NCBI GenBank assembly: GCA_026989265.1
Contig: JALSJP010000001.1
Coordinates: 186,001-250,000, forward strand
Reading direction: 5' to 3'
DNA: 64,000 nt
From: Micavibrio sp.
GTDB taxonomy: Bacteria > Pseudomonadota > Alphaproteobacteria > Micavibrionales > Micavibrionaceae
The notes beneath the pieces were generated by a model. That model was not told the origin of the DNA, did not search any database, and saw only the letters and a list, made by a program, of their open reading frames with translations. The first letter of the stretch is position 1, and every line of letters begins with the position of its first letter. A program made the position numbers and the translations under genes. Below are positions 20,134 through 22,093 of this stretch, piece by piece.

Positions 20134-21429
20134 ATGAGTAATATATATAAACCAAAATCTATTAGTGGCTTTCCTGAATGGCTTCCCGAAATTAGAAGAG
20201 CAGAGCAGCTTTGGTTTGACCAAATCCGCACAGTGTTTGAGAGCTATGGCTTTTGCTCTATCGAAACGCCTAGCGTTGAGGAGCTGAATGTTATCAATGC
20301 AAAAGGTGGCGATGGCGGCGCGGACGTGGATAAAGAGGTGTACGTGCTTGAACGCTTGCACAAGCAAAATGATGATAAAGAAGCGCGGCTAGCCCTTCAC
20401 TTTGACCAGACAATACCCCTTGCCAGATATACCGCGCAGCATTTTAATGATTTAGTATTCCCGTTCAAACGCTATCAAATGCAGCGCGTTTGGCGCGGTG
20501 AACGCCCGCAAGCTGGGCGCTTTCGTGAGTTTTATCAATGCGATATAGACGTGATAAATGTTGATAACTTGCCCATGCATTTTGACGCGGAAATGCCCGC
20601 CATTATTTGGGGGATACTAAGCGGACTAGACGGCATGGAAAACGAGAATATCCAAATCCGCATTAGTAATCGCAAAATTTTAATTGGCTTGCTTGAAGGG
20701 CTTGGCATTGAAAATATTACAGAAGTAACAAGATGGATTGATAAATCAGATAAACTCCCCCAAGATAAAATAGCACATGAGCTAGAAAATATAGGGTTAA
20801 GCTCTGATAATATAGATAAAATATTTGATATAACGTCAAAATCATCATTAAAAGAAACAGTTGCTATAAATGACCTAATGCGCGAAGGAATAGAAGAGCT
20901 ATCATTTGTAATGGAGCAGCTCTCACATTTGCCTGAAGGCGCGGTAATAGCAGACTTATCCATAGTGCGCGGGCTTGATTACTATACTGGCACAGTCTAT
21001 GAGACGGTGTTTACCGACGATCCTAGCTATGGCTCGATATGTTCTGGCGGGCGTTACGATGACCTTGCCAGCAACTATATCAATAAGAAATTACCAGGAG
21101 TTGGAATATCCATCGGATTTTCACGCCTGTTTGATCGCATAAGACTTAAGGGCAATTTGCCGAGCCTTAGCATGTCACCAGCCGATATTTTAGTTATATT
21201 GCCAAGCGAAGAGCTGCGCCCTAAGGTAATGGAAACAGCTCAAATATTGCGCAAACGCGGATTTAATGTTGAGACATTCCACAGCCCGTCAAAAATGAAA
21301 AGGCAGCTTGCTTATGCTCAGAAAAAAGGGATAAAATATGTCTGGTTTCCTGATGCTGGGGAAGTTAAAAACATGGATACAAGCGAGCAAGCAAAGGCTA
21401 CGCCTGAGAATTGGACAAAAGATGATTAG
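20134..21429 (+). CDS. hisS: histidine-tRNA ligase
   Basis: Class II aminoacyl-tRNA synthetase charging tRNA-His. The 431-residue protein shows motif 2 as GRFREFYQCDIDVI, the histidine-specific loop IVRGLDYYTGTVYE, and motif 3 as GVGISIGFSRLFDR; the C-terminal anticodon-binding domain begins near ADILVILPSEE. Its length is typical. The stop codon overlaps the start region of the next gene (ATG at 21422), so the two are probably co-expressed. Confidence 0.96.
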   Translation: MSNIYKPKSISGFPEWLPEIRRAEQLWFDQIRTVFESYGFCSIETPSVEELNVINAKGGDGGADVDKEVYVLERLHKQNDDKEARLALHFDQTIPLARYTAQHFNDLVFPFKRYQMQRVWRGERPQAGRFREFYQCDIDVINVDNLPMHFDAEMPAIIWGILSGLDGMENENIQIRISNRKILIGLLEGLGIENITEVTRWIDKSDKLPQDKIAHELENIGLSSDNIDKIFDITSKSSLKETVAINDLMREGIEELSFVMEQLSHLPEGAVIADLSIVRGLDYYTGTVYETVFTDDPSYGSICSGGRYDDLASNYINKKLPGVGISIGFSRLFDRIRLKGNLPSLSMSPADILVILPSEELRPKVMETAQILRKRGFNVETFHSPSKMKRQLAYAQKKGIKYVWFPDAGEVKNMDTSEQAKATPENWTKDD

Positions 21430-22093
21430 ACTATCCAACAACGTCATTCCTGCGAATGCAGGAATCTTTAGCAACCTGCACAAACAGATTCCTGCATTCG
21501 CAGGAATGGCGCTAATGTTATTTATGATGTTTGCTCAACCCGCCACCGCGCAAGATAAATATGACAGCAAAGACTACTCCCCTGATTATTGCCAGTTCAC
21601 CGCCACATTCCCTGATGAGCCATATATAACCGAGCATTGCGAAGGAAAGAGCAAAGATACATGCTATAACCTTATATCTTACACAAAAGTGTTTGATGTT
21701 AAATCCACCGTGCGAGTTGATATTATCTGCAACCCATCCACCCCTGCAATGTATAAGGAATTCAGCACCAAAATTATGGAAAAGACTGTGCGTGCCATGA
21801 CAAAAGGCACAGTTATAGAAACATATGAAGTAAGCTCTCGCCAAGAAGATGAATACCGCCAAACAGGGCTGCTTGGCAAGGCTCGTAAAGGGCTTGGTGA
21901 TACAATATATATTGCTCAACTTTGGGCTGCGGAAAACTCGATAATGTCAGTAGAGGCGGAGCTTATGGGCGAGCCTTCTCCAGATGCCGACCAGCTATTC
22001 GCCAAGATATTAAGCACTATTGGCTTTGAAAAAGATATAAATAAAACGGAAGATAAAGGCGATAAAGATACTACTGACAAACAAGATCAGTAG
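21422..22093 (+). CDS. secreted protein of unknown function with a repeat-derived N terminus
   Basis: About 223 residues from the ATG at 21422, which overlaps the hisS stop by eight bases. The first 28 codons run through a perfect inverted repeat (NVIPANAGI ... QIPAFAGM), and the hydrophobic stretch MALMLFMMFAQPATA with cleavage before QDKY follows at once. An alternative start is the ATG at 21506, whose bases lie in the right repeat arm. The mature protein has paired cysteines (DYCQF, EHCEGK, DTCYN, IICNPS), suggesting disulfides in the periplasm, and a Lys/Asp-rich tail. No family name is recognised. An upstream in-frame ATG at 21338 lies inside hisS and is unlikely. Confidence 0.7.
   Translation: MIRLSNNVIPANAGIFSNLHKQIPAFAGMALMLFMMFAQPATAQDKYDSKDYSPDYCQFTATFPDEPYITEHCEGKSKDTCYNLISYTKVFDVKSTVRVDIICNPSTPAMYKEFSTKIMEKTVRAMTKGTVIETYEVSSRQEDEYRQTGLLGKARKGLGDTIYIAQLWAAENSIMSVEAELMGEPSPDADQLFAKILSTIGFEKDINKTEDKGDKDTTDKQDQ
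21445..21508. repeat. perfect inverted pair of REP-like units
   Basis: The 23-base unit at 21445-21467 (CATTCCTGCGAATGCAGGAA plus TCT) is repeated exactly in inverse orientation at 21486-21508, with 18 bases between. Each unit is itself a hairpin (ATTCCTGC-GAAT-GCAGGAAT). The pair matches the common bacterial GTCATTCC palindromic element in BIME-like head-to-head form. It lies between the hisS stop and the signal peptide of the next gene and is read through in frame. Confidence 0.9.

Follow-up and report, generated by a model that had tools for sequence, protein, structure and literature searches.

Palindromic repeats as probable in-frame insertions in the signal peptide of a secreted protein encoded after hisS in Micavibrio relatives

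Palindromes within genes are already known in two forms, intragenic REPs and the Rickettsia palindromic elements (RPEs), the latter being families spread over many proteins within one genus; what is new at the locus described here is the repeated recruitment of such repeats into one signal peptide. The CGTC-1 REP family, as delimited by Di Nocera et al. (2013, PMC3733652), includes Micavibrio aeruginosavorus, Neisseria dRS3 and Rickettsia RPE-6. Intragenic copies are reported in that account, in which the majority of N-terminal copies are regarded as probably lying outside the gene and, as far as it bears on the matter, no recurrent site is described. The element analysed here shares with the CGTC-1 REPs an 8-bp stem, a 4-nt loop, an outer CGTC tag, a head-to-head dimer, a short spacer and an alphaproteobacterial host (PMC3733652), and with the RPEs, as they are cited in the same paper, the in-frame insertion of a palindrome at a tolerant site of a conserved protein. 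It differs from the RPEs in that one signal peptide appears to have been entered independently by many unrelated families, selection favouring the hydrophobic frame. Likewise, Coxiella QMITE2 in enhC (PMC5896051) is an in-frame MITE at the end of a gene that supplies terminal residues, although it is C-terminal, a single case and not part of a signal peptide. The signal peptides of GDF/BMP proteins (PMC2717928) also change almost completely in sequence while keeping their function, although the part of that work relevant here does not name a mobile repeat as the source of new sequence. A literature search returned nothing relevant on signal peptides built from REPs, nor on the peptide strings.

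With a probability that we put at about 0.83, comparison of the sequences indicates that a REP dimer inserted in frame into a signal peptide, that the same site was refilled repeatedly in relatives with selection for the hydrophobic frame of the right arm, and that some relatives have domesticated the inserted sequence.

The hisS locus and its hairpin element

The window, that is, the whole stretch of 64,000 nucleotides that was analysed, belongs to a Micavibrio-related alphaproteobacterium with a genome of 1.74 Mb in 34 contigs, and an Rfam search of it matched two tRNAs only. Within it, the ATG of a secreted-protein gene (21422) overlaps the hisS stop codon (21427–21429), and 12 nt past that stop begins a palindromic element (Table 1).

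Table 1. Positions of features at the hisS locus of the window, and loci of element classes in relatives
Feature	Position or loci	Strand	Basis or remark
hisS, histidyl-tRNA synthetase	20134..21429	+	Pfam PF13393 (E 3.9e-25) and PF03129
Secreted-protein gene, predicted Mog1/PsbP-like fold	21422..22093	+	orthologues; AlphaFold; Foldseek
Inherited start and n-region of signal peptide (MIRL)	21422..21433	+	element-free orthologues open with MIK/MMK/MKI at the same place
Left CGTC-REP arm of head-to-head dimer	21442..21467	+	repeat search; read as VIPANAGI; low-copy family
Right REP arm, reverse orientation	21486..21511	-	repeat search; + strand reading QIPAFAGM; holds in-frame ATG 21506–21508
Inherited h- and c-region (ALMLFMMFAQPATA), predicted cleavage before QDK	21509..21550	+	matches conserved A-x-A-Q(E/D) end of orthologous signal peptides
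REP-type class at site	window, L055, L057, L060, L063, L068, L099, L116		
GTCATTGCGAG...CTCGCAATGAC class at site	L040, L043, L050, L066, L078, L082, L091, L094		
GTCATCCCGAGCGCAGCGAAGG class at site	L051		second palindrome nested inside
GTCATTCCGAGCGTAGTCGAGG class at site	L076		
accaccaaggcaccaag class at site	L045		
cgcgaagacgcaaagacgcc class at site	L052		
Eroded copies at site	L062, L072, L104		recognised from peptide
hisS-internal elements, SGLLRDFITRNDVIARSVSDEAIQ-type	L052, L056, L062, L083, L104		
hisS-internal element, REP	L088		

The sequence-only reading had described a perfect 23-bp inverted pair, translated as NVIPANAGI and QIPAFAGM in frame with the secreted-protein gene, together with an ATG inside the right arm, and the repeat search and translation bear out both, the ATG being in frame. 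The perfect pairing (21445–21467 with 21486–21508) lies within arms of 26 nt each that an inverted-repeat search finds complementary at 25 of 26 positions across an 18-nt spacer. Each arm is itself palindromic (CGTC-ATTCCTGC-GAAT-GCAGGAAT), so that the element is a head-to-head REP dimer, and the gene frame across it reads MIRLSNNVIPANAGIFSNLHKQIPAFAGMALMLFMMFAQPATAQ. Folded as RNA, the element reaches -50.1 kcal/mol, compared with a mean of -22.7 for shuffled sequences (z -7.6; none of 200 shuffles equals it). A chance palindrome is ruled out by these fold statistics and by recurrence at orthologous loci.

The features that define CGTC-1 REPs can be located individually. The CGTC tag, for which TGTC or CCTC may also stand in this family, occupies 21442–21445, the right arm ending in CGCC, one base off; the 8-bp stem starts with A-T pairs and closes on the 4-nt loop GAAT; the tags face outward in the dimer; and eight exact half-palindromes are dispersed over the whole 1.74-Mb genome, making the family low-copy. 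The unpaired tail is CTT, unlike the majority published tail CCA, which the published wording does not make exclusive. The remaining clear copies examined in the genome lie between genes, such as the pair of ruvA- and ruvC-like genes or the pair of pdxT- and pdxS-like genes (named from their translations), and a pattern search of the host genome for the exact consensus GTCATTCCCGCG gave no copy. The GTAG tag of RAYT-type REPs is absent from the window element. RAYT-type genes (PF01797 above cut-off) are present in 33 of 104 relatives. In the host genome the best match is a 27-residue PF01797 fragment below cut-off, and a RAYT as mobiliser within this genome was rejected for want of an intact gene, in agreement with a published remark that CGTC REPs are seemingly without a dedicated transposase (PMC3733652).

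Of the 104 family genomes, 90 encode an orthologue of the secreted protein, almost always immediately downstream of hisS, and these orthologues share four invariant cysteines. Pfam and NCBIfam assign the protein to no family, the one weak Pfam match, in a single member, being at chance level. The mature domain is modelled by AlphaFold with a pLDDT of 91.3, and its Foldseek matches (PsbP, DcrB, SciW and LpqN; best E 1.8e-5; TM-scores of about 0.5–0.6 to PsbP) predict a resemblance to the Mog1/PsbP-like fold. A duplicated 3′-end fragment of the gene lies outside the window (L025 1501–1596; G000:C1:273679-273774); it is 81% identical over residues 191–222 of the protein, and its surroundings show no visible intact gene.

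Signal peptides were judged by eye from hydropathy and motif. The N terminus of the window protein consists of MIRL, then SNNVIPANAGIFSNLHKQIPAFAGM, then ALMLFMMFAQPATA-QDK, and it combines a positive n-region with a hydropathy peak of 2.44 at residues 29–38 and a PATA-QD end. Element-free orthologues carry plain signal peptides from the hisS-overlapping start, for example MMKLLRVLCLTLLFSAPVMAQE and MIKYLPALLILIFSNTAIAQE. By this comparison the window element appears to split an ordinary signal peptide, separating the n-region MIRL from the h-region ALMLFMMF, which stands intact after the element.

Recurrence at the orthologous site

Orthologous loci were fetched, hisS and the mature domain were located in each, and inverted repeats were scanned (score at least 11). 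In the interval that separates the hisS stop from the mature domain (9.6 kb in total), DNA structure alone reveals an inverted repeat in 20 of 80 hisS-linked orthologues of the Micavibrio group, compared with 24 in 219 kb of flanking control sequence (nine in the 109 kb that comprise hisS and its upstream flank, 15 in the 110 kb from the mature domain onward). The control repeats on the downstream side are not of recognised element types, and recognised classes in the flanks are found essentially at one other spot, in hisS. Exact-pattern copies tell the same story: the site holds 10 REP and 10 GTCATTGCGAG ends, whereas about 0.05 of each would be expected per 100 bp of a uniform genome, an excess of approximately 200 times; were insertions permitted in no more than a tenth of the genome, p would still be about 5e-6 for each pattern.

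Counting eroded copies, the elements at the site fall into at least six sequence classes in 12 genera, a possible remnant in L115 having been left out as too uncertain. On an 85-row tree of hisS and the mature domain, the pattern takes 19 multistate or 15 binary changes. Parsimony cannot tell whether such a change was a gain or a loss, some of the cases within a genus may go back to a single insertion, and most of the genomes are metagenome assemblies. Presence can differ between closely related sisters, as with L099, which has an element, and L100, which does not.

Individual loci record further events. In L051 (G059) one palindromic element is nested in another, and both are open in frame through the signal peptide. 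L060 and L063, two members of one genus, carry a tandem duplication of the element's right end (GMTMRAGMT and GVTMMAGVT). Because both duplicate this end although their stems differ, the sequences suggest a common origin followed by turnover of the stem.

Reading frame, start codon and hairpin

From the hisS stop to the end of the element, the gene frame contains no stop in 637 orthologue codons, whereas the shifted frames contain 25 and 20. All 22 tested elements are open in the gene frame, compared with 5 and 7 in the shifted frames (Fisher 5e-8 and 2e-6); these comprise the 20 found by DNA structure plus L062 and L104, which were recognised by translation and so are not fully independent. 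With one representative per genus and class, 13 of 13 are open, compared with 4 and 5. All 21 elements with GTCAT/ATGAC-type ends place the terminal ATG or GTG of the right arm (in L062 only its position) in the gene frame, as do 18 of 18 when only elements found by DNA structure are counted, while the left ends split 5/7/7 over the three frames. Consequently variable on one side and fixed on the other, the elements always present a right arm that reads as hydrophobic (IPAFAGMT, WIASLTLAMT). The two remaining frames of this arm offer, respectively, a terminal TGA and charged residues (FRRND, for example), and this would be why the hydrophobic frame is retained. As with RPE-type elements, the insertion is in frame within a conserved protein that relatives possess without it.

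It is worth considering that the element might instead be untranslated 5′ sequence that provides a new start, either the right-arm ATG or GTG (21506 in the window) or a codon at 21515. The in-frame terminal ATG or GTG in every one of the 21 elements is what such a start predicts, and the right-arm frame result by itself fits it too; moreover, a published warning holds that N-terminal REPs are often extragenic since translation starts downstream (PMC3733652). However, the frame upstream of such a start should lack constraint, and the stop-free upstream frame does not fit. Furthermore, L062 has lost the right-arm ATG, and in L043 and L066 a start there would leave only 3–5 residues before the cleavage site. 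In the window, the ATG at 21506 directly abuts AGGA and sits inside the -50 kcal/mol hairpin, whereas the ATG at 21422 has GGA six nucleotides upstream. We therefore regard a downstream start as very improbable. The suggestion that the repeat had supplied the start codon fails for a further reason: orthologues that lack any palindrome open at the same hisS-overlapping codon (MMKLL, MIKYL, MKIRH), one of the outcomes that the sequence-only reading had itself named as refuting it. Its other proposal, a contribution of the repeat to the n-region, gains support: the repeat reads as signal-peptide sequence that extends the n-region, in keeping with the open frame and with the constant hydrophobic frame of the right arm. 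Since the gene frame is free of stops and the right-arm frame is fixed, ribosomes most likely initiate at the hisS-overlapping codon at 21422 and translate the whole element. This departs from the view taken of N-terminal copies in PMC3733652, as far as it is set out there, in that the frame statistics of the orthologues indicate coding copies within a signal peptide.

We thus favour the view that a REP dimer of the CGTC type, which is a mobile palindrome of small size and non-autonomous, inserted in frame between the inherited n-region and the hydrophobic core. Translation from the old hisS-overlapping codon through both arms would then yield an n-region of about 28 residues before the old core, and the product would presumably be exported and cleaved. 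The site would tolerate insertions because it lies directly past the hisS stop and because n-regions accept almost any sequence; in relatives, unrelated palindromic repeats would have filled it repeatedly, and selection would have retained only those insertions that were open and had the right arm in the hydrophobic frame. The insertion, its recurrence and the frame constraint can be read from the sequences themselves, while the manner of insertion and any effect on fitness are what we infer from them.

A different possibility is that the hairpin itself is selected, as an RNA element tuning mRNA stability or the coupling of hisS to the downstream gene, and that coding is a side effect. The window hairpin is very stable and begins 12 nt past the hisS stop; elements of the relatives mostly begin 6–21 nt past it, and REPs located near gene 3′ ends are commonly held to function at the RNA level, according to remarks in PMC3733652. 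Nonetheless, about three quarters of the orthologues have no element, the eroded copies in L062 and L072 preserve the right-arm peptide and not the hairpin, and a bias in right-arm frame combined with random left-end frames would be left unexplained. Selection on the hairpin with coding as a by-product is accordingly unlikely in our judgment, although tuning by the hairpin may be an extra effect beside the coding role.

Domestication and elements elsewhere

Granted in-frame insertion, the elements might still be neutral decoration, inserting everywhere, surviving at a tolerant spot and adding nothing to the signal peptide. For the window gene this is compatible with the explanation we prefer and differs from it only on whether the element acts. 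ORF calling places 66 of 80 further element copies, drawn from seven genomes, between genes, implying that elements land mainly where they are harmless, and the original h-region of the window protein is intact. Since the old core was left whole, the window repeat would mainly lengthen the n-region, and its own contribution may be neutral ballast. In some relatives the pattern differs: most of the hydrophobic core of L043 (WIASLTLAMTTVAYA-QE), L066 (WIAASALCLLAMTANA-QE) and L072 consists of right-arm sequence, and L099, which has the element, also has part of its old core replaced relative to its close sister L100. The eroded copies of L062 and L072 have lost the left arm but retained the right one, and no left-only remnant was seen among the copies at the orthologous site. 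For the site as a whole we consider neutral decoration possible and lean against it. Because the right arm became most of the h-region, the sequences of some relatives indicate that the repeat has been domesticated as signal-peptide sequence. In L043 (G022), a single element provides hisS with its stop codon and at the same time the gene that follows with its signal peptide.

The secreted-protein gene after hisS is the strongest case of an element in a signal peptide, and others exist. Of the sampled copies that are not intergenic, at least three lie in signal peptides (L195, L159 and L196), while the element of L204 precedes an N-terminal membrane segment and that of L163 lies inside a dxs-like gene. 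L159 (the same gene as L227) and L196 (the same gene as L228) are one LysM lipoprotein carrying two element classes in sister species. Across 30 orthologues of this lipoprotein there are two clear elements and two probable right-arm remnants (L233, L243), all in the same hydrophobic frame. A second site lies within hisS, where in-frame elements occupy one variable position approximately 600 nt before the stop in several genera (Table 1), and L073 carries the same element ends in its hisS part. These hisS-internal insertions behave like classical RPEs.

Several palindromic families hold a hydrophobic peptide (PAFAGMT, IASLTLAMT, FAALAMT) in one frame of one arm. This invites the tentative speculation, to which we give somewhat less than an even chance, that such families repeatedly furnish exported proteins of this order, and perhaps of bacteria widely, with the cores of their signal peptides, so that the mobility of repeats would drive the turnover of signal peptides. 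Whether REPs at annotated N-terminal ends are translated had been left open, given that the start codon could lie downstream; with the start fixed by the hisS overlap, and with 80 orthologues at hand, sequence comparison suffices to answer that question for one gene. Mobile repeats would appear to have supplied the raw material of a signal peptide many times over, indicating that such repeats can become protein sequence.
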